Positions 46,573 to 61,544 of a stretch of DNA of 64,000 nucleotides are shown in pieces. The DNA is from Thermoanaerobaculia bacterium. GTDB taxonomy: Bacteria; Acidobacteriota; Thermoanaerobaculia; Multivoradales; JAIOJS01. A model generated the notes under the pieces. The model had not been told where the DNA came from and did no database searches. It saw only the letters and a program-made list of their open reading frames with translations. The stretch spans positions 1 through 64,000 of the forward strand of contig JAUIDB010000003.1 in assembly GCA_030429235.1 (NCBI GenBank). The letters run 5' to 3'. A program made the translations under genes and the position numbers. The stretch's first letter is position 1; the number at the start of each line of letters is the position of its first letter.

Positions 46573-47115
46573 CTAGTCCAAGGGCTTCAGCCGATACCTG
46601 CGACCAGCCCAACGCACCTCGAGCCCCGCGGGGGTCGACAGCACCTCGACCACAGGCCTGGTCGCTCCCTCGACCTGAGGAGCAGGCGCCTCTTCACGCA
46701 ACCGTTCACGAGCCTGTTCCACCACCTCACGAAACAACCGGTCGATCCCCTGCTGCAGTACACGCGCCGGTGTGAATCGGCCGACGAGTCCGAGGTCGAC
46801 ATCGAGTTCGAGGGCCAGGGTCGTTCCTTCGCCGTCGGGGGGTTCCTGAAAACGCCAGCTGAGATCCCACCGCTTGAGGCGACCCCGCAGCTGTCGCTGG
46901 TCGAAGCCCAGTGAGGTCGTGCGAATTTCGAGGCGTTGTTTCCACTCGCGACCCATCGAGTCCTGCACCAGATCCACGATCTGAGTCCCAGCCGATTGTT
47001 CGATCCGCCGTACGCTGCGGATCCCGGGAAACCAGTGGGGCCAGGCCAGCACCTCGGCGAAGAGGGCTCGTACGCGCTCGGGGGACTCCTGGAAACGGGC
47101 GTACTTCCGGATCAC
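46573..47115 (-). CDS. START/SRPBCC-fold protein (coenzyme Q-binding / cyclase-like)
   Basis: A 180-residue protein with the SRPBCC hydrophobic-cavity fold. It starts with ESPERVRALFAEVLAWPHWFPGIRSV, the typical helix and W-P turn of COQ10 and polyketide cyclase-like proteins. The middle carries WDLSWRFQEPPDGEGTTLALELDV, and a C-terminal extension of about 40 residues follows. Overlaps its paralogue upstream by four bases (ATGA at 47112-47115). It is the last gene of the export operon. It may bind a hydrophobic product or lipid. A 173 bp gap to the DinB gene holds nothing recognisable. Confidence 0.85.
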   Translation of the reverse strand: MIRKYARFQESPERVRALFAEVLAWPHWFPGIRSVRRIEQSAGTQIVDLVQDSMGREWKQRLEIRTTSLGFDQRQLRGRLKRWDLSWRFQEPPDGEGTTLALELDVDLGLVGRFTPARVLQQGIDRLFREVVEQARERLREEAPAPQVEGATRPVVEVLSTPAGLEVRWAGRRYRLKPLD

Positions 47116-47645
47116 GACGACACCAGGCGATAGGTCGTACCGGCCAACCGGATCACCAGTCCATCGGCGTCCTCGAAGACTTCGAGGAGCGACTCGGTCA
47201 CCTCGTCGCGTTGCCCCACCTCCCCGGCTTCCCAGCGCATGGCCCGAGCCTGCAGGGCCGACAGGCGCGACGAGATCATCTGCCGCCAGGAGCGGTGGGA
47301 GAAGGGCTCGAACAGCGAGCAGCGGTAGTGCAGATCGACCTCGACGCGGACCGCGGCCTCAGCCGGATGGAGGCTGATGCAACCTTCCAGGCCCCGATGC
47401 CGGATCTGGTCGGTTTGGTGGAGCCGAAGCGTGTGCTCGGAGTCGATCTCGATCACTTCGAGCACCAGAGGTGAACCGCCTCGCCTTTGCAGCTCGACGA
47501 TGGCGACATTGCCTTCGCGGGCGAGCACTTCGACACCGCTGACCCCCGGTACCCAGGCTACGAAGGACGGATAGTCGGTCAGGGCCTGCCACACCGATGC
47601 CGGGCTGGCCTCCAGCCTCGAGCTGCGACGTACCCGATACTTCAT
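47112..47645 (-). CDS. START/SRPBCC-fold protein, paralogue of the next gene
   Basis: A 177-residue SRPBCC protein. SRLEASPASVWQALTDYPSFVAWVPGVSG gives the same opening helix and W-V-P turn as the neighbouring paralogue, followed by VELQRRGGSPLVLEVIEID and a similar C-terminal extension (DGLVIRLAGTTYRLV). The start overlaps the cNMP protein stop (ATGA at 47642-47645). Tandem duplication is likely. The substrate is unknown; the neighbouring ACP/ketosynthase genes suggest a hydrophobic acyl or polyketide-like ligand. Confidence 0.85.
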   Translation of the reverse strand: MKYRVRRSSRLEASPASVWQALTDYPSFVAWVPGVSGVEVLAREGNVAIVELQRRGGSPLVLEVIEIDSEHTLRLHQTDQIRHRGLEGCISLHPAEAAVRVEVDLHYRCSLFEPFSHRSWRQMISSRLSALQARAMRWEAGEVGQRDEVTESLLEVFEDADGLVIRLAGTTYRLVSS

Positions 47646-48412
47646 CGATCCGGCTCCGAGTCCGGCTCGGCCGAAGTATCGAACCACAGCCGCACCAGTC
47701 GAGAGGGTAGCCGAAACCCCTCGACTACCAACCGTCGAGAGGCACGTTCCAAGCCACCGGGCCGCGACGGGTCGAGATCGTCGGCCAAGTGTCGACAGAG
47801 TTGGTCTCCCCATCTTGCAGCCCCTCCCAGTCCGCGCGTGCCGAGTCGGGCCCACTCGACCTGTTTGCGCAGCACCTCCGCCGGTTGGAGACGTCGAGAT
47901 CGCGCGGTCGCCGCGGCCGCCGGTTCAGCGGCCGGTGAGGTCAATACCTGGAACTCCATCGTCTGGGCCGCCGCCTGCCCCCGGGCACCACGCTGCGCCG
48001 AGCGGAGTCTCGCGGCCAGGGTGGGCACGATGCACCAGGCGATCTCGGGATCGTTCCGCGTCAGGGAACGAAAGGCCTGACGGGTAATGAGCAGACACTC
48101 CGTGCGTTCCAGGGCACGCGCCGAGGCCGAGCGTGGCAGCTCATCGACCAGGGCGATCTCCCCCAGCAGATCACCGCTCGACAGGCGAGCCAGGTCCACC
48201 TTGCCCGCCCCTTCGCCGCGAAAGACCTCCACTCGGCCCTGGGTGATGACGAACATGCCGAGGCCGACAGCTCCCTCCTCCAGCAGCAGCTCTCCTCGTT
48301 GGAAGGACTGCGGCACGCAGGCCTTGGCAAGCTTCGCGAGGCGGCGGCGCGACAGGCGACCGAAGATTTCGGTGCGTCCCAGCGGCTCCACTCGGTCCGT
48401 CCACTTGCCCAC
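47642..48412 (-). CDS. Cyclic-nucleotide-binding domain protein
   Basis: A 256-residue protein. Residues about 15-125 form a CAP-type cNMP-binding roll (IFGRLSRRRLAKLAKA, GELLLEEGAVGLGMFVI, SSGDLLGEIALVDELPRSASARA). After it come an Ala-rich linker and a basic helical C-terminus (PAEVLRKQVEWARLG), without a clear helix-turn-helix. The start is GTG 48412, sharing one base with the permease stop (TAGTG). Encoded inside an ABC export operon, it could gate transport or expression in response to a cyclic nucleotide; this is inference. Confidence 0.84.
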   Translation of the reverse strand: MGKWTDRVEPLGRTEIFGRLSRRRLAKLAKACVPQSFQRGELLLEEGAVGLGMFVITQGRVEVFRGEGAGKVDLARLSSGDLLGEIALVDELPRSASARALERTECLLITRQAFRSLTRNDPEIAWCIVPTLAARLRSAQRGARGQAAAQTMEFQVLTSPAAEPAAAATARSRRLQPAEVLRKQVEWARLGTRGLGGAARWGDQLCRHLADDLDPSRPGGLERASRRLVVEGFRLPSRLVRLWFDTSAEPDSEPDR

Positions 48413-49617
48413 TACACCAGCTCCTTCTTGAAGATCGCCGTCGCCACACTCATCCCGACCACGAAGAACGCGAGGAGCGCCCACAGCTCGGGTAGCTGGT
48501 CGAGAATGGAAGCTCCTCGCAAGAGGATTCCCTTACACAACCTGGCGTAGTGGGTCAGGGGCAGCAACTCGCCGAGCCACTGGGCCGGTTTCGGCATCGC
48601 CTCGAACGGAAACATGAACCCCGAAAGCAGAACCGAGGGGAGGAAGAAGAAGAAGGAGACCTGCGTCGCTTGGTACTGGGATCGCGTCAATGCCGAAATC
48701 ACGAGTCCCAAGACCAGATTCGCCGCGATGAAGACGATCGAGGCCAACGCCAGATCGAGCGGAGAGCCGCGGAAGGGCACGGCGAAGAGTGCGATTCCGG
48801 CGCCCACGATCAACGCGATTTGAATGACTCCGATACCGATGTAGGGCAGGATCTTCCCCAGCATCAGTTCCAGACGGCGCACGGGGGTCGCGATCAAGAA
48901 CTCGAAGGTCCCTCGTTCGCGCTCGCGGACGATGGCCAACGCCGTCATCAGGATCATGGTCGTCGTCAGGATCACCCCGAGCAAGCTGGGGACCACGAAC
49001 AGCGCCGTTCGCAGTTCGGGGTTGAACAGGTCGAGGACCGCGAACTCGACCAGCCGCTGGCGTTCGAGATCCTCCTCGGACCCGAAGGTGTCGCGATCGA
49101 TCGAAGCCCGGAGGGTACCCTCGGCCCCTTCGACGACAAAGGGCTGGAGACTCTGATTGATCACTCCCTGGAGCCCCTCGGCCGAGGCTCGCACGGCCCG
49201 CGCCAGCGTCGGGTCGGTCGCATCGACCAACACCGAGACCTTGGCCCCTTGGCCCCGATACCAGGAACGGGCGAAGTCCCCAGGTACCTCGATCACGGCC
49301 TGAACTTCACCGCGTACCAGAAGCCCATGAGCCTCGTCGCGATGGAGCGGCCGCGCCACTACGTCGAAGGTCTGGGTCGCTTCGAGCCGGCCCACGAGCC
49401 GCCGCGACACCTCCGAGTTCGATGCGTCGACCAGGGCCGTCGGAACGTGGCGCACGTCATGGTTGATCGCATACCCAAAAAGTGCCAACTGAACGATCGG
49501 CAGTCCGACCACGAATCCGGTGGTGAGCGGATCCCGAGCGAGTTGCCGCAGCTCCTTCCGCGCCACCGACACCACCCGGCGCACGGAGCCGACCAGATTC
49601 CCGATCGGACCCTTCAC
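48412..49617 (-). CDS. ABC-2 type transporter permease
   Basis: A 401-residue ABC-2 permease of the YhhJ/YbhS type: one N-terminal helix (TTGFVVGLPIVQLALFGYA), a large extracytoplasmic domain of about 170 residues with a VDATDPTLARAV stretch, and five C-terminal helices. The conserved MALAIVRERERGTFE-type loop (ALAIVRERERGTFEFLIATP) and LPLTHYARLCKGILLRG are present. It works with the ATPase and lipoprotein adaptor encoded just upstream. The start overlaps the ATPase stop (ATGA at 49614-49617). The substrate is unknown; hydrophobic compounds or lipids are usual. Confidence 0.91.
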   Translation of the reverse strand: MKGPIGNLVGSVRRVVSVARKELRQLARDPLTTGFVVGLPIVQLALFGYAINHDVRHVPTALVDASNSEVSRRLVGRLEATQTFDVVARPLHRDEAHGLLVRGEVQAVIEVPGDFARSWYRGQGAKVSVLVDATDPTLARAVRASAEGLQGVINQSLQPFVVEGAEGTLRASIDRDTFGSEEDLERQRLVEFAVLDLFNPELRTALFVVPSLLGVILTTTMILMTALAIVRERERGTFEFLIATPVRRLELMLGKILPYIGIGVIQIALIVGAGIALFAVPFRGSPLDLALASIVFIAANLVLGLVISALTRSQYQATQVSFFFFLPSVLLSGFMFPFEAMPKPAQWLGELLPLTHYARLCKGILLRGASILDQLPELWALLAFFVVGMSVATAIFKKELV

Positions 49618-50615
49618 TCCGCCCCTCCGAAGTCCTCACCCAACGTCACCGCCACAAATACATCCTCGAGCGTCGCCTCACAGGGCCGCGAGCGAGTGCG
49701 AAAACGCGCTTCGGCGAGCCGGAGGTCGAAGCGCTGGCAGGCCTCTGCTGCTTTCGGGCCGTCCTCGACTAGCAATACGTGCGCCCGGTGCCCGAGTTGG
49801 GTCACACTGGCGATCAGAGGATCGGTCTGCAGGAAGTCGATGACCTCGGTCACGTTAGGAGCCTCGATCTCCAGCACCCGGTCCCGGAGCTGCTTCTCCA
49901 ACCGCGCCGGCGAACCCTCAGCCACGAGACGGCCCGACATCATCATCGCCAGTCGATGGCAGCGGGTCGCCTCGTCCATGTAGTGGGTCGACACCAGGAT
50001 CGTGGTTCCGGCCCCCGCCAGTTCGAAGATCTCCGACCAGAACTGGCGACGGCTGTCGGGGTCGACTCCGGCCGTCGGTTCGTCGAGCAGCAGCAACGCA
50101 GGCCGGTGGACGGTGGCCACCGCCAGGGCCAAGCGCTGCTTCCACCCCCCGGACAGGGTTCCGGCCCGTTGGTTCCGGCGCTCCGTCAGGCCGAGGTTCT
50201 CCAGCTGCTCCGGCACCCGGCGGCGGCGTTCACCCCGGGTCAGGCCGAAGATCTCGGCGGCGAACTCCAGGTTCTCCTGGATGGTCAGATCCTCGTACAG
50301 GGCGAAACGCTGAGCCATGTACCCCACCTGGTTCCGCACCCGGTCGGCATCACGAGGCAGGTCGAGTCCGAGAATCCTGATCGCTCCCCGGGTCGGCCGC
50401 ATCAGCCCCATCAGCATCCGGAAGAGGGTCGACTTGCCCGCCCCGTTCGGCCCCAGAAAACCGAACACCTCGCCCTCTCGAATCGTCAGGTCGACTGCGT
50501 CGACCGCTACCAACGAACCGAACTTGCGGGTCAACCCCGACACTTCGACCAGTGGCCTCCCCCAGGAGGTCAGCTGCGTCAGTTCCTGGGTCGAGAGGAC
50601 GTCCTGCTGTTTCAC
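49614..50615 (-). CDS. ABC transporter ATP-binding protein
   Basis: A 333-residue ABC ATPase. Walker A GPNGAGKST, Q-loop YMAQRFALYEDLT, signature LSGGWKQR (a Trp replaces the usual Gln), Walker B LLLLDEPTAGVD and the H-loop STHYMDEA are present. The C-terminal third (about 245-333) carries the DrrA/YbhF-type extension. The GTG start at 50615 is seven bases behind the adaptor stop with GGAG upstream. The order adaptor-ATPase-permease matches YbhGFS-type exporters. Confidence 0.93.
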   Translation of the reverse strand: MKQQDVLSTQELTQLTSWGRPLVEVSGLTRKFGSLVAVDAVDLTIREGEVFGFLGPNGAGKSTLFRMLMGLMRPTRGAIRILGLDLPRDADRVRNQVGYMAQRFALYEDLTIQENLEFAAEIFGLTRGERRRRVPEQLENLGLTERRNQRAGTLSGGWKQRLALAVATVHRPALLLLDEPTAGVDPDSRRQFWSEIFELAGAGTTILVSTHYMDEATRCHRLAMMMSGRLVAEGSPARLEKQLRDRVLEIEAPNVTEVIDFLQTDPLIASVTQLGHRAHVLLVEDGPKAAEACQRFDLRLAEARFRTRSRPCEATLEDVFVAVTLGEDFGGAE

Positions 50616-50622
50616 CGACGGA

Positions 50623-51573
50623 TCACTCCGCCTCGGCGCGATCGGCCGCTTCGTCCGGCGCGGTACGGGCCACGGGTGGGTCCTCGACCGGCGGAGCGGT
50701 CTCTGGAGAGCCGGTTCCTCCAGGGGCCGGGGCCGGATGCGAGGCACCGTTGGGGCTCGCCGACGCCGTGACCTCTACGCGCGCCGGGAGGCCGGGCCGC
50801 AGCCCTCGTGGAGCGTCCTGTAGACGGATCCGGGTCTCGTAGACCAGATGGGCGCTCTCCCGTTCGGTGAGGGCGAAGTGCGGAGTGAAGTCCGACTCGC
50901 GAGCGATCTTCTCCACCACCCCGGCCAGGGTACCGTCGATCCCTTCGACCTCGACCCGCGCGCGATTGCCCAACTCCACTTTGCTGGCGACCCGAGCCGG
51001 CAACCAGACCCGCACGTAAGGGGCCTGATCTGCCAAGACCACCGCCACGACACTGCCGGCGGAGGTGCGTTCGCCGACCTCGAAGGGCAGTTCGTCGACC
51101 ATTCCTCCCCCCCAGGAACGCAGAGTGAGATCCGCCAGGCGCTTCTGCGTCTGCACCACCCGGGCGGTACGCTCGGCCACCAGGGCCACCGCTTCGTCGC
51201 GCGCTCGCTGCGCCCGGTCGAGTTCTTGACGACTCGAGACGCGCGCTCGCTGGAGGCCTTCGATGCGCGTGAACTCTCGTTGTGCCTGGGCCTGCTGCGC
51301 CTCCGCGGCCGCCAGGGCCGCTTCGGATGCCGCCAGCTCTGCCTCCGCTACCGCGCTGTCCAATCGCACCACGACCTGATCGGCCGCCACCCGATCACCG
51401 ATGCCTACGGGGATCTCAACGATCACCTCAGAGATCGGCGCCGCGATCTCGAGCGACTGGCGCTCCACGGTACCGACCAACTGGATGGTCTCCCCGCTCG
51501 ATTGACAACCTGCTAATCCCAGTGCAAGAGCACCGATTCCTACGACCCAGCTGTTTCTGTTCACAGCGCGCAT
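50623..51573 (-). CDS. Lipoprotein membrane-fusion (HlyD/MacA-type) adaptor
   Basis: A 316-residue exported adaptor. The signal sequence ends in GLAGC, a clear lipobox. The barrel-sandwich halves (ERQSLEIAAPISEVIVEIPVG; RIRLQDAPRGLRPGLPARVEV) flank a coiled-coil hairpin (about 75-135, Ala, Glu and Arg rich). A Pro-rich tail follows. YbhG-like adaptors link ABC-2 permeases to an outer-membrane channel; no TolC gene is nearby. It is divergent from the ACP-ketosynthase genes, from which it is separated by 109 bp. Confidence 0.89.
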   Translation of the reverse strand: MRAVNRNSWVVGIGALALGLAGCQSSGETIQLVGTVERQSLEIAAPISEVIVEIPVGIGDRVAADQVVVRLDSAVAEAELAASEAALAAAEAQQAQAQREFTRIEGLQRARVSSRQELDRAQRARDEAVALVAERTARVVQTQKRLADLTLRSWGGGMVDELPFEVGERTSAGSVVAVVLADQAPYVRVWLPARVASKVELGNRARVEVEGIDGTLAGVVEKIARESDFTPHFALTERESAHLVYETRIRLQDAPRGLRPGLPARVEVTASASPNGASHPAPAPGGTGSPETAPPVEDPPVARTAPDEAADRAEAE

Positions 51574-51609
51574 GGTAGCAGTCCGACCCAAGGGGAGAAC
51601 AGGGGAACC

Positions 51610-51625
51610 TGTGACAGATTTCACG
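51610..51625. promoter_or_regulatory. CRP-type palindrome in the divergent promoter
   Basis: TGTGA-CAGATT-TCACG (51610-51625) matches nine of ten positions of the CRP consensus TGTGA-N6-TCACA. It lies midway in the 109 bp region between the adaptor gene and the ACP gene. Such a match occurs by chance about once or twice in 64 kb; its position makes it notable. Confidence 0.4.
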
Positions 51626-51682: not shown

Positions 51683-51982
51683 TTGTCGTCAGCCGTTGAC
51701 CCCACCGATATTCTCGAGCGCATCCAACGCGTTATTTCGACCGTCACCAACATCCCGACCGAGCGCATCTCCGCTACCTCTTCCTTCCGCGATGAACTCC
51801 AGCTGGACTCTCTGGCCATGCTGGAGATCGCGGTCGACGTGGACTACGAGTTCCGCCTCGGAATCGAAGATCTCGAAGACCGAATCGCCGAACTCCAGAC
51901 CGTGCAGCACGTGGTCGATCTCGTCGCCTCTGAGCTCGCTGTTCGCGAGAGCCCGATCGCCTCTGAAGTCCCGGTCGGCTAG
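51683..51982 (+). CDS. Acyl carrier protein
   Basis: A 99-residue carrier protein. The phosphopantetheine serine is Ser43 in LQLDSLAMLEI, and the acidic helix II pattern DVDYEFRLGIEDL follows. The N-terminus ILERIQRVISTVTNIP is the usual helix I. The start is the TTG at 51683 with AGGAG eight bases upstream; the frame continues upstream without homology. Together with a KS/CLF pair it forms the minimal set of a type II pathway. It is distinct from the expected fatty-acid ACP, which sits elsewhere as acpP. Confidence 0.9.
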   Translation: MSSAVDPTDILERIQRVISTVTNIPTERISATSSFRDELQLDSLAMLEIAVDVDYEFRLGIEDLEDRIAELQTVQHVVDLVASELAVRESPIASEVPVG

Positions 51983-51984
51983 CC

Positions 51985-53247
51985 GTGGTCGAACTGCTGG
52001 CCACCGACCCGCGGGATCGCACGCGGCGTCCTCCGGTGGTGGTCACTGGCATCGGACCGGTGAGCCCCATCGGTACTGGCGTGGAGTCCTTCTGGACTGC
52101 CCTGCTCGAGGGTACCGATGGCGTGGCTCCGATTCGTTCGTTCGACGCCAGTCGATTCAAGGTCCGAGTCGGGGCCGAGGTCCATGATTTTGCGCCGACA
52201 CCCTGGTTCCACCGGACCGATCCCGAACGCCGGGGTCGCGCGGCGCAGTTCGCGGTCGCCGCGACGCGGCTGGCGCTCGCCGATGCCGGTCTCGACGCGA
52301 CCAACGGTCTGGACACCCGAACCGGAGTCGCCTTCGGCACGACCTCGGGGGAACCCCGTGAGGTCGAGAGGTTCAACGACGGCCTGCTCAGCGGGAGCGA
52401 CGGCGCGACGGCCGCGGACCGCTTTCTCGAGCGTTACCCCTGCCACACCATCCCCGCCGCCGTAGCCACCGAGTTCGGATTCGCCGGGCCCAACGTGCAA
52501 CTACCCAATGCCTGTGCCGCCGGGAACTACGCCCTGGCCCGCGGCCTGGACCTACTCCAGAGCCGCCGCGTCGACCGCATGGTCGTGGGTGGCTCGGACG
52601 CCTTCAGTCGCATCACCTTCAGTGGATTCGCCAGGTTGGGTGCCGTGGCCGCGGAGTTCTGTGCCCCCTTCGACCGCAATCGACGCGGCATGGTCCCGGG
52701 CGAAGGAGCGTGCGTCCTGGTGCTAGAACGCGCCGAAACCGCCCGGCTCCGCGGAGCACGGATCTACGCCGCCGTCGCCGGCTACGGCTTGACCTGCGAC
52801 GCACACCACATGACCGCGGCCCACCCCGAGGGTGACGGTCCGGCGCGCGCCATGCAGGCTGCCCTGCTCGACAGCCACTTGACTCCCGCCGACGTCGACT
52901 ACGTGTCGGCCCACGGGACGGGAACCCCGACCAACGACCGCCTCGAGACGATCGCCCTGCAGCGTGCCTTCGGTCCCCGGGCCGCGACCCTGCCGATCAG
53001 CTCGATCAAGTCGATGCTCGGGCACACCATGGGAGCCGCCTCGGCCTTCGAAGCAGCCGCCTGTTGCCTCGCCATCACCCACCAGCAGGTTCCACCGACG
53101 ATCCACTTCGAAGAGCCCGACCCGGAGTGTGCCGTCGACTGCGTGCCGAACCACGCCCGCGAGCTCGCGGTGAGGGTGGCTATGAACAACGCCTACGCCT
53201 TCGGTGGGGCCAATGCCTCGGTCGTATTCCAGGAGTGGTCCGAGTGA
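51985..53247 (+). CDS. Beta-ketoacyl-ACP synthase (KS-alpha, FabF-like)
   Basis: A 420-residue thiolase-fold condensing enzyme. The catalytic triad is Cys177 (LPNACAAGN), His310 (SAHGTGTPTND) and His347 (LGHTMGAA), with Lys342 in SSIKSMLGH, so it should be active. It catalyses decarboxylative Claisen condensation on ACP-bound chains. The GTG start is two bases behind the ACP stop. The next gene is a condensing-enzyme homologue lacking the active residues, which is the layout of type II polyketide KS/CLF heterodimers rather than of fatty-acid operons. Confidence 0.93.
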   Translation: MVELLATDPRDRTRRPPVVVTGIGPVSPIGTGVESFWTALLEGTDGVAPIRSFDASRFKVRVGAEVHDFAPTPWFHRTDPERRGRAAQFAVAATRLALADAGLDATNGLDTRTGVAFGTTSGEPREVERFNDGLLSGSDGATAADRFLERYPCHTIPAAVATEFGFAGPNVQLPNACAAGNYALARGLDLLQSRRVDRMVVGGSDAFSRITFSGFARLGAVAAEFCAPFDRNRRGMVPGEGACVLVLERAETARLRGARIYAAVAGYGLTCDAHHMTAAHPEGDGPARAMQAALLDSHLTPADVDYVSAHGTGTPTNDRLETIALQRAFGPRAATLPISSIKSMLGHTMGAASAFEAAACCLAITHQQVPPTIHFEEPDPECAVDCVPNHARELAVRVAMNNAYAFGGANASVVFQEWSE

Positions 53248-54413
53248 GGCGTCGGGTTTTCGTCACGGGGAGGTCCCTGCTCAGCAGCCTGGGCCAGGAT
53301 CCGACCGCGGTGCTGGAGGCGATCCGCGCCGGCCAGAGCGGCATCCGGATCCACCCACCCTTCGCCGAACGCGACGGCATCGAGACACCACGCGACCTTC
53401 CGGCCGAGGTACTGCCCGAGGGCGCGCTGACCACCGGCGAGCTCGTCGACTGGGACCCGCTCCCCGATCTCGGCGAGGGGAACCTCCGTCCCCTCGATCG
53501 CACCGGCCGACTCGCCGCGGCGGCCGGTGCCCGTGCACTCGCCTCGGCTGGCTGGACCACCGACACGACCTCGACCATCGGACTGGTTCTAGGCACTCAG
53601 TACGGTGGACTGCGAACGATCTCGGAGTTCGACCGCCGAGGGATGACGGCCGGCCCTCTCTACGTCAAGCCCTTCGAGTTCGCCAACAGTGTGCTCAACG
53701 CTGCCGCCGGGCAGGCTGCGATCTGGCACCGGCTCGAAGGGAGCAATACGACGGTCTCGTCGGGTCTGACCTCCGGCATCCAGGCGGTGGGGATCGCCAC
53801 CGACCTGCTGCGATCCGGCCGAGCCCAGCGCCTGCTCGCCGGGGGCGCCGAGGAGTTCTGCTGCGAGGGCTACTGCGCCTTCGCCGCCGCCGGACTGCTG
53901 GCAGCGAGTGATGCGATGGAAGCGACACCTCCGACCGGAACCCATCTCGGAGAGGGAGCCGCCCTGCTCGCGCTGGAGGCCGCCGCCGTCCCCGCCGCTT
54001 GCTCCGGCCGCCCTCGGGCCGAGGTCGTGGGTTCCGGCGAGGCCTTCGACCCGAGCCCGGAGCGGACCCGCGACAGCGCGGCCGACAGCCTTCGCCGAGC
54101 CGTGGAACTGGCCTTGAACGAAGCCGGCGCCGCCTGGGACGAGCTGTCGGTGGTGGTCGACGGGCGCGACGGAATCCCATCGGTCGACGCTCCCCAGGAG
54201 CAGCTCTGGCGGGAGATCTCGAGCCACGCCCCCTCTGCTCTTTATGTCAGCCCGCGGCTCGCGCTGGGCGAAGCGCTGGGAGCCTCCGGAGCCCAGCAAC
54301 TCGTGCTACTCGAAGAGGCCCTGCCCGCCCTTCCTCCGCGAGCGCTGGGGCTCACCTACGCCAGCGGACTTACTGGCCACCACCACGCCCTACTCCTCCG
54401 GAGGCTCGATTGA
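53244..54413 (+). CDS. Chain-length-factor-like (KS-beta) protein
   Basis: A 389-residue condensing-enzyme homologue. Aligning with the neighbour, the active Cys is Leu175 (VSSGLTSG), the first His motif is lost, the Lys is Arg and the last His is Glu (LALGEALGAS). Such loss is typical of KS-beta/CLF partners that set chain length and stimulate starter formation. The GTG start overlaps the KS stop (GTGA at 53244-53247). It could alternatively be a decayed duplicate, but its length and intact frame argue for function. Confidence 0.87.
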   Translation: MRRRVFVTGRSLLSSLGQDPTAVLEAIRAGQSGIRIHPPFAERDGIETPRDLPAEVLPEGALTTGELVDWDPLPDLGEGNLRPLDRTGRLAAAAGARALASAGWTTDTTSTIGLVLGTQYGGLRTISEFDRRGMTAGPLYVKPFEFANSVLNAAAGQAAIWHRLEGSNTTVSSGLTSGIQAVGIATDLLRSGRAQRLLAGGAEEFCCEGYCAFAAAGLLAASDAMEATPPTGTHLGEGAALLALEAAAVPAACSGRPRAEVVGSGEAFDPSPERTRDSAADSLRRAVELALNEAGAAWDELSVVVDGRDGIPSVDAPQEQLWREISSHAPSALYVSPRLALGEALGASGAQQLVLLEEALPALPPRALGLTYASGLTGHHHALLLRRLD

Positions 54414-55609
54414 GCGACGACTCGCAGCGCCGTCCGCTCGAACTCATACCGCGCTACGCCGACCAGGGGTACCGCGACGAAGAGATTGCCGAACGTCGGC
54501 GCTGGCTGGCTGATCGGCTGGGACTGGAGTTCGAGCACATCGGCCGCGGCAGCCTGCCGGGAGAGTCTCTCCGCGGCAACATAGAGAACCCGATCGGACT
54601 GGCCCAAGTTCCGATCGGCCTGGCCGGACCGCTGGAGGTCCGCGGCGAGCACGCCACGGGGCGGTATTACGTTCCGTTGGCCACCACCGAGGGAGCCCTG
54701 GTGCGCTCCTACGAGCGCGGCATGTTGGCTCTCACTCGTTCCGGAGGGGTCACCTGTCGCCTGCTGGACGACCGCAATCGACTCTGCCCCCTCTTCGAGT
54801 GTCGCGATCTCGCAGCCGCCACCGAGCTCGCGCGAGCGCTCCCCCATCGCCAGGACGAGATCGCCGTCGCGGGAGAAGCGACCACCCGCCACGGCAAACT
54901 CCTCGCGGTCCGAGGTGAACCGCTGGGCCGCTGGGTCCTCGCCACCTTCGAATGGAGCACCGGCGACGCCCATGGCATGAACATGATCGCGCGCGCCACC
55001 GATGCCGCCTGCCAGTGGATCGTCGAGCACCTCGCCCCCTCGAGGTACCTGCTCTTCAGCGGTGCGAGCGGCGAGAAACGACCCGCCGGATCCCTACTCC
55101 TCGGGGGCAAGGGCAAGACCGTCGTCGCCGGCGCACGGGTGCCGGCGAGCGTCCTCCGAATGCACCTCCGGGTGGAGGCCGAGCAGCTGGTCGAGTTGTG
55201 GGAGAAAACCGCGCTCGGCCACCTGCGGGCGGGAAGCGTCGGCTACAACGGGCACCTAGCCAACGGCCTGACGGCCCTGTTCATCGCCACCGGACAGGAC
55301 GTCGCCAACGTCGTGAACTCCTCGGTAGGAGTCACCCAGATCGAGCGTTTCGACGGCGAGGATGTCTACGTTTCGCTCCATCTTCCGTCGCTGACCGTTG
55401 CCACCGTGGGCGGCGGAACCGGCCTCGGAACCAGCCGCGAGTGTCTCCAGATCCTCGGCTGCGAAGGTCAGGGACGAGCCGGAGCCCTAGCCGAGATCAC
55501 CGCCGCCACCCTGCTGGCCGGAGAGCTTTCGATGGCGGCGGCGATCGCCAGTGGCGAGTTCGTGGAGGCGCACGAGACCTACGGCCGCAACCGACCCACC
55601 GAGGACTGA
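54410..55609 (+). CDS. 3-hydroxy-3-methylglutaryl-CoA reductase, class I type
   Basis: A 399-residue HMG-CoA reductase catalytic domain. The four catalytic residues of class I enzymes are visible: Glu94 (PLATTEGALV), Lys223 (GEKRPAG), Asp297 (FIATGQDVAN) and His388 (FVEAHETYGRN). NADPH-binding GDAHGMNM is also present. It converts HMG-CoA to mevalonate with NADPH. The TTG start overlaps the KS-beta stop (TTGA at 54410-54413) with GGAGG before it. Other mevalonate genes are absent, so its role here may be mevalonate supply for a hybrid product or reduction of a different thioester. Soluble, with no membrane anchor. Confidence 0.92.
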   Translation: MSDDSQRRPLELIPRYADQGYRDEEIAERRRWLADRLGLEFEHIGRGSLPGESLRGNIENPIGLAQVPIGLAGPLEVRGEHATGRYYVPLATTEGALVRSYERGMLALTRSGGVTCRLLDDRNRLCPLFECRDLAAATELARALPHRQDEIAVAGEATTRHGKLLAVRGEPLGRWVLATFEWSTGDAHGMNMIARATDAACQWIVEHLAPSRYLLFSGASGEKRPAGSLLLGGKGKTVVAGARVPASVLRMHLRVEAEQLVELWEKTALGHLRAGSVGYNGHLANGLTALFIATGQDVANVVNSSVGVTQIERFDGEDVYVSLHLPSLTVATVGGGTGLGTSRECLQILGCEGQGRAGALAEITAATLLAGELSMAAAIASGEFVEAHETYGRNRPTED

Positions 55610-55613
55610 GTCG

Positions 55614-57113
55614 ATGGCTCGCCCTTTCCGCGGCCTGCGGGACCGCCCGCCGCGGGCCGAGTACGACGCAGTGGTCGTGGGAGCCGGGGTCGGTGGGCTG
55701 GTCTGCGCCAACCTGCTGGCCCGAGAGGGACTCCGGGTCCTCCTGGCCGAGCAGCACTACATGGTTGGGGGGTACTGCAGCACTTTCCGCCGCGCCGGAT
55801 GCACCTTCGACGCCTCGACCCACTTCTATCCCCTGCTCGGGAACGCCGACACCCTGACGGGACAGCTGCTCCGAGACCTCGGTGCCCGGACGGAGTGGAT
55901 CGCCATGGACCCGGTCGATACCTTCCACCTCCCGGACGGTACGCGGTTCGAGGTTCCGGCCGATCTTCCGAGCTACCGTCGCGCACTCGACGAGCGGTTT
56001 CCCCAGTCGCAGTCGCAGCTCGAGCGGTTCTTTACCGAGGCCCGCGAGGCCTATCTGCTCGGCACCCTCTACCACTTCCGCGGCCGGCGCACGCGAAAGC
56101 TCGCGGCCTACGAGGACCTGACCCTCGACCAGGTCCTGCGGCGCCACTTCGAGGACGAGCGACTCCGTCTGCTCCTCACGGCCGACGTCCCCCACTGGGG
56201 GTCTCCGCCGGACCGTACGTCGTTCGTCTTCGACTCGATGCTCCGCCTGTCGTACTTTCTCGGCAACTACTACCCCCGAGGCGGCTCGCAGGCGTTCGTC
56301 GACGACCTCGCGGCCCGCTTCGAGGAACGCAGGGGAGAGATCGCCATGAGCACCGCGGTCGAACGGATCCTGGTCCAAGAGGGACGGGTTGCAGGAGTCG
56401 TACTGCACACCACCCGCGGCCGGCAGAAGGGCCGATTCGAGGCCCGAGCCCCGATCGTCGTGAGCAACGCCGACCTCCTGCACACGCTGCGCGACCTGCT
56501 GCCTGACGCTCCCGCGGTCGAGGCCGAGCGGCGCCAACTCGCTCGCCTCCGCCCCAGCTTCCCCTGCTTTCTCACCCACATCGCCCTCCAGGGCGCGGAT
56601 CCCGACGCCCTCGAGCAGATCCAGGGCTACTACTGGCAAGAGTGGGACGCCAACCGCGTCGGACGGGGGGCCCTGCGTTTGAAAGTGTTCTGTCCCACTC
56701 ACTACGATCCCGAACTCGCTCCCCCCGACCACCAGATTCTCATTCTCCAGAAGGTGCTGGAGATCGACCCCCGCGAGTTGCGCGATCCTGCCGAGCACAA
56801 GCAGCAGATCGAGGCCTACTTGCTGGCCGAACTCGAGAAGATCCTTCCCGGGATCTCCAGCCATATCGTCACCGTACTCACCGCCTCCGCCCACACCGCG
56901 GAGCGCTTCACCCGCAACGAGCGGGGAGGCATGCTCGGGTGGGAGATGTCGCCCGACCAGCTCGGCGACCACCGGCCGTCGGGCGAGGGTCCGATCCCCG
57001 GCCTCTTCCGCGTTGGCCATTGGGTGCGGCCGGGCGGCGGCATCACCCCGGTGATCGTGTCGGCCCTGCAGGCAGCCCAAGGGATCACCAAGGGTTCGAT
57101 CCTCGAAAGCTGA
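55614..57113 (+). CDS. CrtI/RetSat-like FAD-dependent oxidoreductase
   Basis: A 499-residue flavoprotein. The dinucleotide-binding motif AVVVGAGVGGLVCANLLAREG starts near residue 20, followed by GGYCSTF. The C-terminal FAD loop is GHWVRPGGGITPVIVSALQAAQ. This is the phytoene-desaturase, carotene-isomerase and retinol-saturase superfamily. Its substrates are long conjugated or isoprenoid chains. It lies four bases behind the HMG-CoA reductase stop, so it is in the same operon. It could saturate, desaturate or isomerise a polyene made by the adjacent KS genes; this is inference. Confidence 0.9.
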   Translation: MARPFRGLRDRPPRAEYDAVVVGAGVGGLVCANLLAREGLRVLLAEQHYMVGGYCSTFRRAGCTFDASTHFYPLLGNADTLTGQLLRDLGARTEWIAMDPVDTFHLPDGTRFEVPADLPSYRRALDERFPQSQSQLERFFTEAREAYLLGTLYHFRGRRTRKLAAYEDLTLDQVLRRHFEDERLRLLLTADVPHWGSPPDRTSFVFDSMLRLSYFLGNYYPRGGSQAFVDDLAARFEERRGEIAMSTAVERILVQEGRVAGVVLHTTRGRQKGRFEARAPIVVSNADLLHTLRDLLPDAPAVEAERRQLARLRPSFPCFLTHIALQGADPDALEQIQGYYWQEWDANRVGRGALRLKVFCPTHYDPELAPPDHQILILQKVLEIDPRELRDPAEHKQQIEAYLLAELEKILPGISSHIVTVLTASAHTAERFTRNERGGMLGWEMSPDQLGDHRPSGEGPIPGLFRVGHWVRPGGGITPVIVSALQAAQGITKGSILES

Positions 57114-57168: not shown

Positions 57169-58896
57169 ATGTCCTCTCTTCGTTCGCGCTACTGCCTTCT
57201 CACCCTTACCTCGAGCTTCTTCGGTGTCTTGCTGACGACCGCCCTCGCGGCCCAGTCCCCCGACTCAGCATCAGACCCGGCAGTGGCGACTTACTGCGCC
57301 GGTCCTCTGCGCACGACCATTTCACACAGCCAGTGGCAGGACTACGCGGCCTTTCGCGGCTGGTCTGTCACCGACCCCCACCCGGCTCAGCTCGAGGCTC
57401 TGGCGCTGCAGCTCCGGCTGGCGGCCGCAGCTCGTGATCGGACCCAGAGCGCCCAGGAGAAGTTCGCGCTCGAACAGGAGCGGATCGAGGTCCTGTCTCG
57501 CTATTATCGACAGTCCCGTCCCACGCCGGATCCGGTGTCCGAGGAGCTCGTGCAGGCGAGGCTCGAGCGACTGCGGGAAGAGCGAGGACTGCAGCGACCG
57601 ACCAGGGTCCATCTGCGCGAGATCTTCAAACGTCTACCCGAGGGAGCCGACGCCGCGACCCGCAGCGCGCTGCGTACCGCCACGGAGGAGGTCCGGGACC
57701 GGCTCCTGGCCGGCGAGGACATCTCCGAGCTGGCCCGGCTCGAGTCCGATTCCCAGACGGCCTCCAGCGGCGGTCGCCTCGGCGTGTTTCGCCCCGGAGG
57801 CCTGCCCCCCGCCCTCGAGGAGGTCGCATTCGGTCTCGACCCGGGCGAAGTCAGCCCGGTGCTCGAATCAGAGACGGGCTTTCTCATCCTCAAGGTGGAA
57901 CGGCGCGTCGAGGCGGAAACCGTCCCCGAGGCGGAGGCCCGACGACTCGTACGAGAGAAGCTCGAACGGGAGCAGGCCGAGCGGCTGGCCGAGCAGCGTC
58001 GCCAAGAGCTCCTGGCCGGCGCCCACGCCACGATCGACCCCACCGAGGCTCGCCAGCGCCAAGGGTCGGAGACCGTGCTGCGCGCCGCCGGTCGCGACCT
58101 CAGTGCCGACGAACTCGGTTGGCTAGCCCGCTCGTCCACGCCCTACACGCTCGCTCAGCTCACCGAATCTGAAGTGTCGGCACTGCTCGAGGAGCAGGCC
58201 ATGCGGGCCGAGGAGGCGAGACGTCAGGCCAGGAGTCCGAGCACCGAGGAGCTGGAGAGGCGGCTGCGCTGGAGCGAGGTACGCACCCTGGCTCGGCTCG
58301 AACTCGAACGGCGGGTACAGGGCCGCTTCACCCCCCCGACCCGAGAGGAGCTCGAGCGCTACATCGCCGAACACCCAGATCGGTTCCAGCGTCGAGAGCA
58401 CTACGACCTCAGGGTCGTGCGCATCGACGACGCGTCCCACGACGGGGACGCTGCCGCCCTGGTGGTCGACCTCGCCCGCCGACTTCGAGCCGGCGAGGTC
58501 GAACTCGAGGCGGTGGCGCGGGACCACTCCGACCACCGCTCGCGGGAGCGAGGTGGCGCTGTCGGTTGGTGGAGCCGCAAGCGGCTCGCCGCCCACGGCC
58601 CTCTCCTGCTGCGGACGGTGACGGCGCTGGCCGCCGGCCAGACCAGCGACGCGATCCGTCAGGACCGCAGCTGGTGGTTCCTCCAGCTCCTCGGCACCGA
58701 ACCGGCGCGGCCGATGACCTTCGAAGAAGCCCGCTCCCGAGCCGACCGCTTCCTCGGCAACGAGAGGGTGCGGACACTGCAGAATGCAGTCGAGGCCGAG
58801 CTCACGCAGGAACTCGGCCTCGAATTCGGTCCGGCCTCGGCCAGCGAGGAGCGGGAACTTTCCTGCCCTCAGGCCCCGCCATCGGCCGGGCCCTGA
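57169..58896 (+). CDS. Exported parvulin-type peptidyl-prolyl isomerase (two PpiC domains)
   Basis: A 575-residue exported protein. A signal peptide (CLLTLTSSFFGVLLTTALA) is followed by a helical SurA-like N-part. Parvulin domain one is near 147-250 (VHLREIFKRLPE ... GGRLGVFRPGGLPPALEEVAFGL). A second, more degenerate one lies near 405-510 (VGWWSRKRLAAHGPLL). Such proteins fold outer-membrane or secreted proteins in the periplasm. A paralogue lies at 59.9-61.5 kb on the other strand. It starts 55 bases behind the CrtI-like gene and could be part of the same unit or have its own leaderless promoter. Confidence 0.86.
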   Translation: MSSLRSRYCLLTLTSSFFGVLLTTALAAQSPDSASDPAVATYCAGPLRTTISHSQWQDYAAFRGWSVTDPHPAQLEALALQLRLAAAARDRTQSAQEKFALEQERIEVLSRYYRQSRPTPDPVSEELVQARLERLREERGLQRPTRVHLREIFKRLPEGADAATRSALRTATEEVRDRLLAGEDISELARLESDSQTASSGGRLGVFRPGGLPPALEEVAFGLDPGEVSPVLESETGFLILKVERRVEAETVPEAEARRLVREKLEREQAERLAEQRRQELLAGAHATIDPTEARQRQGSETVLRAAGRDLSADELGWLARSSTPYTLAQLTESEVSALLEEQAMRAEEARRQARSPSTEELERRLRWSEVRTLARLELERRVQGRFTPPTREELERYIAEHPDRFQRREHYDLRVVRIDDASHDGDAAALVVDLARRLRAGEVELEAVARDHSDHRSRERGGAVGWWSRKRLAAHGPLLLRTVTALAAGQTSDAIRQDRSWWFLQLLGTEPARPMTFEEARSRADRFLGNERVRTLQNAVEAELTQELGLEFGPASASEERELSCPQAPPSAGP

Positions 58897-59873: not shown

Positions 59874-61544
59874 TCAGTCGACCAGCGCCGCGACCCGATC
59901 TGCCCGCAGTCGAAAGTCCACCGCTTCCAGAAGGTCGTCTACTGCCAGTCGGTAGAGTTCCGGGCCTCGCTGCGCCAGGTAGTCCTCCAGCACCTGTTCC
60001 CGCACGACCTCGAACGGCCGCGGTTGCGGGTCGCGGCGCTCCTCCACCCGTAGCGCGTTCACCCCCTCGATCGTGCGGAACGGAGGCGAGAGCTGGCCCG
60101 CATGCAAGGGTGCGACCAGTTCCGCCGCTCGCGGCTCCATCCGTTGGAGGACGTCGAAGCCGATCCACGAGAGCGGAACGACTCGTCCGTCGAGTTGCGC
60201 CGCGAGGTTCTCGAGATCGACCTCTACCCCCGCCGCCGCTTGCTCCAGGCGGCGAGCGGCGGCCAGCCCCTGGGTCGCGGAGTCGACCGGTACCACCAGA
60301 CGGCTCAACCGTAACCGCAGCGGCTCCGCGTAGCGGAGTTGGTGGTTCTGGTAGAAGGCCTCGAGGTCGGCCGCATCCTCGAGAGCCAGAGTCCGCATCC
60401 GATCCCAGGCCCCCTCACGAGCCGCTTCGCGACGCCTCAGTTCCTCCACCTGGGCACGAACCAAAGGCTCGTCGTCCAAACCCTCTTCGACCGCCAGGGT
60501 CGCCGCCCGATGGCGCTGCACCAGCTGCGAGACGAGTCGATGGAGGCCTTCGATACCGGGGCCCCCTTCTCGGTTCTCCTCGGCCCGCTCGATCAGGGCC
60601 GCGAGATCCAACTCGAGGTTCCCGATCCTCAGGGCCAGGGCCGCGCCGTCGCCGGCTTCGAGCAGAACGCGCAACTCGTCCGGGGTCGGTACGAAACTGT
60701 CCGCCGGGAGTTCGACCGCGGCCAGCAACTCGTCGATGGCCTCGTCGCGACGTTCGCGCTGGAGTTCCTCGGCCAGATCCCGGGCCACTTCGTCAAACTC
60801 GAAGTCCCGCGCCCGCACGATCCTCTCGACCCAGAACAGATGCCCCCCCTGAGGTGTTAGGAAGGGTTGGCTGGGTAACTCCGCTGGCAAGCCGAAGATC
60901 ACCTCTTCCAGCGAGGGCGCCAACTGTCCTCGACGGAAGGTGCCCAGCACGCCGTCCCGATGCCGACTCTCGGATTGCGAGGAAAGCCGCGCCACGCGGG
61001 TGAAACCATCCCCTGCCAGAACCCGCTCGCGCAATTGCGACAATCGGTCGCGAAGATCCGCTTCCCGCGCCTCGACCGGCAAGTTCTCGTCGGGTCGGAG
61101 AAAGATGTGGAGTACCAGGCGTTGCTCCTCCCGGTGCCAACGGTCGCGACGGCGGTCGAACAGCTCGCGCACCTCCTCTTCCGTCACCCGCGGCACCGAA
61201 GGCAGATACCGCCGCAGGTATTCGCCGGCTAGGATCTCCTCGGTTCCTTCGGCGAGAGAGCGGCGCGCTGATTCGGTGTCCAGCAGCCCTTGCGCCTCCG
61301 CCTCGCTGGCTAGGATCTCCTCGACGGCAGCCTCCCGTACCAGATCCGCGTACCAGGTACCGAAATCTCCGTCGGCGGGCCGGCGCTCTTCCGGTGGCAA
61401 ACGAAGAACCCGTTCCTCCAACTCGGCCGGGCTCGTACTGCCGGACTTCCACACCGCCAGAGCGTCCTCCGGAACGGGCGAGGAGCACCCCACCAACCAG
61501 CTGGTCGACCCGAGGAGCAGTGCGGCCGTGATGCGGTACTTCAT
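59874..61544 (-). CDS. Lipoprotein parvulin-type peptidyl-prolyl isomerase (SurA/PpiC-like)
   Basis: A 556-residue exported lipoprotein. The lipobox is LVGC (Cys20). A helical SurA-N-like part (about 55-130) precedes a parvulin domain near 140-250 (RLVLHIFLRPDENLP ... GVLGTFRRGQLAPSLEEVIFGL). A second degenerate parvulin domain is near 390-505. Its architecture matches the parvulin at 57.2-58.9 kb, so the two are probably diverged paralogues. The ATG overlaps the sulfatase-TPR stop (ATGA at 61541-61544). Confidence 0.87.
   Translation of the reverse strand: MKYRITAALLLGSTSWLVGCSSPVPEDALAVWKSGSTSPAELEERVLRLPPEERRPADGDFGTWYADLVREAAVEEILASEAEAQGLLDTESARRSLAEGTEEILAGEYLRRYLPSVPRVTEEEVRELFDRRRDRWHREEQRLVLHIFLRPDENLPVEAREADLRDRLSQLRERVLAGDGFTRVARLSSQSESRHRDGVLGTFRRGQLAPSLEEVIFGLPAELPSQPFLTPQGGHLFWVERIVRARDFEFDEVARDLAEELQRERRDEAIDELLAAVELPADSFVPTPDELRVLLEAGDGAALALRIGNLELDLAALIERAEENREGGPGIEGLHRLVSQLVQRHRAATLAVEEGLDDEPLVRAQVEELRRREAAREGAWDRMRTLALEDAADLEAFYQNHQLRYAEPLRLRLSRLVVPVDSATQGLAAARRLEQAAAGVEVDLENLAAQLDGRVVPLSWIGFDVLQRMEPRAAELVAPLHAGQLSPPFRTIEGVNALRVEERRDPQPRPFEVVREQVLEDYLAQRGPELYRLAVDDLLEAVDFRLRADRVAALVD

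Follow-up and report, generated by a model that had tools for sequence, protein, structure and literature searches.

The gene at 54410-55609 on the plus strand of the window, i.e., the whole stretch of 64,000 nucleotides that was analysed, encodes a protein that belongs to the class I HMG-CoA reductase (HMGR) family by its fold and catalytic residues. From its sequence and gene context, we consider it probable that this is a neofunctionalised class I HMGR that reduces an acyl thioester bound to an acyl carrier protein (ACP), probably to an alcohol, as a release step. We also lean towards the view that such an HMGR-fold carrier-protein thioester reductase frees, as an alcohol, the product of a ladderane-related system composed of a ketosynthase (KS), a chain-length factor (CLF), and a CrtI-family flavoenzyme. 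The best explanation of the data is that the HMGR group to which the protein belongs, termed clade A, is part of an ACP-KS-CLF-CrtI lipid or polyketide pathway and acts outside the mevalonate pathway.

The stop-free frame is translated into 399 amino acids. Its TTG start at 54410 overlaps the end of the CLF gene at 54413 by 4 bp. In the profile search, the protein matches PF00368 with 336 bits (E = 3e-100, cut-off 27), while its score of 323.6 bits against the TIGR00533 equivalog model is below the cut-off of 441.8. The best matches in the PDB are class I HMGRs, i.e., 6hr7 (286 bits) and human HMGR (191 bits). The AlphaFold model (pLDDT 72) has HMGRs as its top Foldseek matches, and its pLDDT is below 50 at residues 217-233, in the region of the cis loop. 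Glu94, Lys223, Asp297, and His388 align with Glu559, Lys691, Asp767, and His866 of the human enzyme, and this tetrad is invariant in 64 of 64 clade A rows. The first-pass annotation had noted both the four catalytic residues and the four-base overlap, and both observations are borne out. The features of the locus are as follows.

46573-47645, minus strand: two START/polyketide-cyclase-type proteins (exporter run; tied to the cluster by proximity alone)
48412-49617, minus strand: ABC-2 permease (divergent exporter run)
49614-50747, minus strand: ABC ATPase (divergent exporter run)
50623-51624, minus strand: HlyD-type adaptor (divergent exporter run)
51683-51982, plus strand: acyl carrier protein with a DSL motif, start uncertain (TTG at 51683, AGGAG upstream); profile search and sequence
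51985-53247, plus strand: FabF-like ketosynthase, 420 aa, with Cys177/His310/His347; profile search and alignment
53244-54413, plus strand: chain-length-factor-like KS partner, 389 aa, without the KS Cys and both His; profile search, sites read from the sequence
54400-54404 (approximately), plus strand: GGAGG, the likely ribosome-binding site of the HMGR TTG start, read upstream of the start
54410-55609, plus strand: clade A HMGR-family reductase, 399 aa; PF00368, PDB matches, and residue alignment
55614-57113, plus strand: CrtI/phytoene-desaturase-family FAD oxidoreductase, 499 aa; profile search

The plus-strand genes thus run in the order ACP, KS, CLF, HMGR, and CrtI. Cys177, His310, and His347 of the KS are conserved at a level of at least 90% across 40 sequences, and with a Cys-His-His set in the KS and none in the CLF, the two proteins are, as judged by these sites, a type II KS/CLF pair. 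The divergent HlyD/ABC genes (48412-51624, minus strand) are a possible export system for the cluster product, and they are not conserved at the other loci. The same run includes a cNMP-binding protein together with the two START-type proteins (46573-48412, minus strand). Downstream of the operon are two large PpiC-type parvulin proteins (57169-58896, plus strand; 59874-61544, minus strand), and a PpiC-type-like protein is likewise located downstream of CrtI in locus L056. Neither FabZ nor a radical SAM protein was detected by profile search between or beside the cluster genes of the window. Profile searches of the contig that carries the window (C2) returned no match for HMG-CoA synthase, GHMP kinase, or MVD, in agreement with the earlier statement that the window has no HMG-CoA synthase, kinase, or decarboxylase.

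In a quick tree, the window HMGR falls in clade A, which consists of 64 non-redundant rows on a branch with an SH-aLRT support of 100. Two rows of the tree (L161 and L162), which are the source of the odd residues in group C, were read in the wrong frame and were disregarded. About 20 genomes of the host's order contain relatives (55-65% identity), and relatives also occur at 59 loci in named genome records (51-65% identity, mostly Acidobacteriota MAGs); these two sets overlap. All of the clade A records found among genome contigs are MAGs. The acidobacterial carriers belong to Thermoanaerobaculia, Bryobacterales/Terriglobia, and Blastocatellia, and a few loci are from Planctomycetota, Verrucomicrobiota, Latescibacterota, Zixibacteria, and Poribacteria. 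No relatives were found in viral contigs. Plasmid matches are less than 60% identical and were left out of the tree. On Sinorhizobium plasmids (CP140923.1, L198:8995-10239), an HMGR-family gene is accompanied by acyl-CoA carboxylase, biotin carboxylase, and indolepyruvate ferredoxin oxidoreductase-type genes, and the surrounding 19 kb of CP140923.1 contain no annotated mevalonate gene. On an Alteromonas macleodii plasmid (NZ_OX359244.1, L197:8004-9170), such a gene is preceded by AMP-binding, SDR, and iron-redox genes.

The gene order is conserved across the clade. KS and CLF genes are upstream of the HMGR gene at 41 of the 47 loci with enough upstream sequence and are not upstream at the other 6, and a CrtI-like flavoenzyme is downstream at 45 of the 49 loci with enough flank. 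The clade KS, which is recognised by an identity of 52-63% compared with about 35-43% for other KS/FabF proteins, is present in 13 of 13 genomes tested, including those in which it is not adjacent to the HMGR gene. Most clusters have an ACP gene, and in the Bryobacterales branch a FabG-like SDR follows directly after the HMGR gene. Optional genes encode an acyltransferase whose C-terminal domain is of the PlsC type, a flavin-halogenase-like protein carrying a WxWxIP motif, an RPE65/carotenoid-oxygenase-family protein, FG-GAP/UnbV proteins, and regulators. Chance neighbourhood was rejected as an explanation, since the synteny is conserved over several phyla. Beta-branching PKS logic of the HMG-CoA-synthase type was also rejected, as HCS genes do not recur in the vicinity of the loci; neither an HMG-CoA synthase, a beta-branching cassette, a mevalonate kinase, nor a mevalonate-using gene is recurrent in the clade A clusters. 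In L103 (9877-13089), the CrtI-like and acyltransferase genes are apparently fused into one gene that encodes a protein of 1070 aa; such a fusion would be in favour of a joint role of the two. Several Bryobacterales loci (L088:3174-4979 and others) have, upstream of the cluster, a gene for a patatin-like phospholipase that includes a cNMP-binding domain.

The HMG, CoA, and NADPH subsites were defined according to PMC7503714 and PMC9500038. Arg590 contacts the HMG part of statins and Lys735 forms a salt bridge with the HMG carboxylate (PMC9500038), and Asn567 is a residue of the CoA site (PMC7503714). In all 64 clade A rows, Arg590 is replaced by Val, Ile, Thr, Leu, or Gly (Leu125 in the window protein), Asn567 by Glu (Glu102), and Asp690 by Glu (Glu222), and Lys722 by His, Arg, or Gly; Lys692 is replaced by Arg or His in 59 of the 64 (Arg224). 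Lys735 is not conserved across the clade, but the Lys at this position is retained in the window protein. The cis loop in the Ser684 region is one residue shorter, and the match at Ser684 therefore depends on the alignment; the AlphaFold model is too weak at this loop to place it. In 16 correctly read mevalonate-type HMGRs from the same order, on the other hand, Arg590, Ser684, Lys692, Lys735, and Lys722 are kept, with one or two changes at Asn567. The comparison of pocket residues with authentic HMGRs, which the first-pass annotation had proposed as a check, reveals a different pocket around the kept catalytic tetrad, and clade A appears to lack the HMG recognition set of a functional HMGR (Arg590, Ser684, Asp690, Lys692, and Lys735).

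Of the CoA-site residues, Ser565 and Arg568 are kept in 64 of 64 rows, which would suit a stand-alone fatty acyl reductase that works on acyl-CoA instead of acyl-ACP and is linked to KS/CLF only at the level of the pathway. With Asn567 and Lys722 replaced in every row, however, and an ACP gene in most clusters, we regard this as very unlikely.

The host, an acidobacterial genome of Thermoanaerobaculia, has three HMGRs, including the window copy. The copy on contig C85 is part of a mevalonate operon (IDI2-HMGR-GHMP kinase-MVD) and is therefore the mevalonate HMGR. Its neighbours encode a GHMP kinase, MVD, a squalene/phytoene synthase, an amino-acid-kinase-family protein, and an FMN-dependent dehydrogenase-family protein that is IDI2-like as judged by its context. 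DXR is also present. For HMG-CoA synthase, PF01154 and PF08540 gave no match in the host genome, and TIGR00748 gave 65 bits, which is below the threshold. The search for a second HMGR and a mevalonate pathway suggested by the first-pass annotation was successful for the reductases and the operon, and for HMG-CoA synthase it returned only the sub-threshold match. The window enzyme is not the sole HMGR of a genome with a complete mevalonate pathway, which was the finding named in advance as speaking against an unusual role.

The third copy (C9, L004:9956-11506) has a PF25653 N-terminal domain and adjoins a wax-ester-synthase/DGAT protein and an ABC1 kinase. Together with L125-L146, it forms a second HMGR-like group from Acidobacteriota (with the PF25653 domain), Bacteroidales, Nocardioides, and others. 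Arg590 is kept in this group, position 684 is mostly Glu, Lys735 is absent, and many members are without Met655 or Met657; it is possibly another non-mevalonate HMGR group.

The isoprenoid genes of 24 genomes outside the host's order that bear clade A clusters were also surveyed; these are MAGs of unstated completeness, and the pattern is uniform. The clade A member is the sole HMGR in 22 of them, DXR, an enzyme of the MEP pathway, is present in 22, and no genome has an MVD match over the cut-off in the profile search. HMG-CoA synthase profiles match in two genomes, both weakly. In these 24 genomes, the clade A HMGR does not occur with the mevalonate pathway that accompanies a functional HMGR.

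It could still be argued that the enzyme is an HMG-CoA reductase from which the operon draws mevalonate (or mevalonyl units) to make a hybrid product: it is clearly a member of the family with all catalytic residues, mevalonate genes are present elsewhere in the host genome, and the window protein keeps the Lys at position 735. Against this stand the loss of Arg590 and the change of Asn567 to Glu throughout the clade, the absence of MVD and the scarcity of HMG-CoA synthase in the 24 genomes outside the order, and clusters in which no mevalonate-related gene recurs. We rejected mevalonate supply on the pocket loss and the missing pathway genes and consider it most improbable; the exclusion of mevalonate synthesis is well supported. 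The first-pass annotation had offered two options, namely, that the enzyme feeds mevalonate to a hybrid product or that it was recruited for the reduction of a thioester intermediate, for example in a release step. The former is unlikely, given a lost HMG pocket and carriers that lack the later mevalonate genes and, for the most part, HMG-CoA synthase as well, and the latter is favoured by the sequence data because the synteny is conserved, the catalytic and NADPH residues are retained, and HMG specificity appears to be lost.

In the proposed mechanism, the KS/CLF pair with the ACP would build an acyl chain; in one branch, the gene immediately behind the HMGR gene encodes a FabG-type reductase. 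Desaturation or another oxidation of the chain is the probable task of the CrtI-like flavoenzyme. The HMGR-fold enzyme would then use the kept Glu, Lys, Asp, and His residues and two NADPH molecules to reduce the ACP-bound thioester via a thiohemiacetal and an aldehyde to a primary alcohol, by which the carrier protein would be freed. Consistent with a role for NADPH, Asp653, Gly656, Met657, Asn658, and Arg871 are kept in 64 of 64 rows, while Met655 is replaced by Gln, His, or Ser. No residue in the alignment establishes ACP instead of CoA as the carrier, and an enzyme that stops at the aldehyde after two electrons, or that runs in reverse as an oxidative acylation, would rely on the same residues; we infer that the substrate is acyl-ACP, that the product is the alcohol rather than the aldehyde, and that the CrtI step precedes the HMGR step.

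A two-electron reduction of the acyl-ACP thioester, which would leave an aldehyde for later cluster enzymes, shares its residues and gene context with alcohol release, and RPE65-type and other oxidative enzymes in some clusters may act on such products. However, a class I HMGR normally retains mevaldehyde until the second reduction is complete, His866 and Glu559, which serve that reduction, are kept in every clade A member, and no aldehyde-consuming enzyme is conserved across the clusters; we therefore consider this unlikely. HMGR chemistry is also reversible, and class II HMGRs run oxidative acylation in mevalonate catabolism. An enzyme adjoining a carrier protein and KS/CLF could thus convert an alcohol or aldehyde to the acyl-thioester that primes them, but the kept Arg871 and other NADP(H)-site residues favour a reductive NADPH enzyme, and no conserved alcohol-supplying gene was seen in the clusters, which makes this direction decidedly unlikely. 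Reductive release as an alcohol remains the preferred reading.

To our knowledge, essentially a single reaction is ascribed to the textbook family of HMGR, the target of statins, few enzymes that release acyl chains as alcohols are known, and ladderane biosynthesis is unsolved. Our literature search on HMGR in KS/CLF clusters, reductive release, and Acidobacteriota clusters found nothing relevant. If the proposal is true, the HMGR family has a non-mevalonate role in a lipid or polyketide pathway that is as yet undescribed and is widespread in uncultured Acidobacteriota, and a clade with kept catalysis and a lost HMG pocket adds a new fold to the alcohol-releasing enzymes. It would also link an unstudied acidobacterial cluster to the anammox ladderane candidate genes and provide a relative for testing the shared ACP-KS-CLF-CrtI core.

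Compared with class I HMGRs (PF00368, TIGR00533; human HMGCR and Methanothermococcus 6hr7, to which the window protein is 40% identical), clade A has the same fold, length, and catalytic and NADPH-site residues, whereas it differs in the absence of Arg590, the Glu in place of Asn567, the shortened cis loop, the variable Lys735, and its location next to KS/CLF in hosts of which many have no mevalonate pathway. The putative NADPH-dependent conversion of a thioester to an alcohol resembles that of alcohol-forming acyl-ACP/acyl-CoA reductases (FAR and the SDR-type R domains of PKS/NRPS). These are SDR/Rossmann enzymes, however, and their fold is unrelated to the HMGR fold found by Foldseek. The ishigamide-type highly reducing type II PKS, of which we take PDB 6kxd to be the KS-CLF, likewise has a heteromeric KS/CLF with an ACP; in sequence comparison, the window KS matches it with 317 bits, but is far closer to the planctomycete-type KS of 9s5h, at 455 bits.

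Chains B and C of 9s5h are the closest solved KS and CLF (455 and 136 bits, respectively). The source of 9s5h is presumably an anammox bacterium, as suggested by gene order and by matches of 90-95% in planctomycete genomes (up to 95% for the KS). The planctomycete locus around this KS has the order ACP, FabZ, KS, CLF, CrtI, and B12/radical SAM protein, and its composition matches that reported for Kuenenia kuste3603-3608 (PMC4790861), i.e., ladderane candidate cluster 2, with ACP, FabZ, FabF, a non-canonical FabF, phytoene desaturase, and radical SAM (PMC4790861, PMC2649909). The window cluster has homologous ACP, KS, CLF, and CrtI genes in the same order but differs in that an HMGR gene separates CLF from CrtI and that both FabZ and radical SAM are absent. 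None of the 15 planctomycete genomes with the KS has a full-length HMGR match, and two have a weak partial one. Identities to the planctomycete relatives are about 50-55% for KS, about 36-39% for CLF, and about 34% for CrtI. In the trees, KS (97/91) and CLF (100/100) from the HMGR clusters are sisters to those of the planctomycete cluster, and this relationship, together with the similar composition, indicates that the acidobacterial and the ladderane candidate clusters have an ACP-KS-CLF-CrtI core in common.
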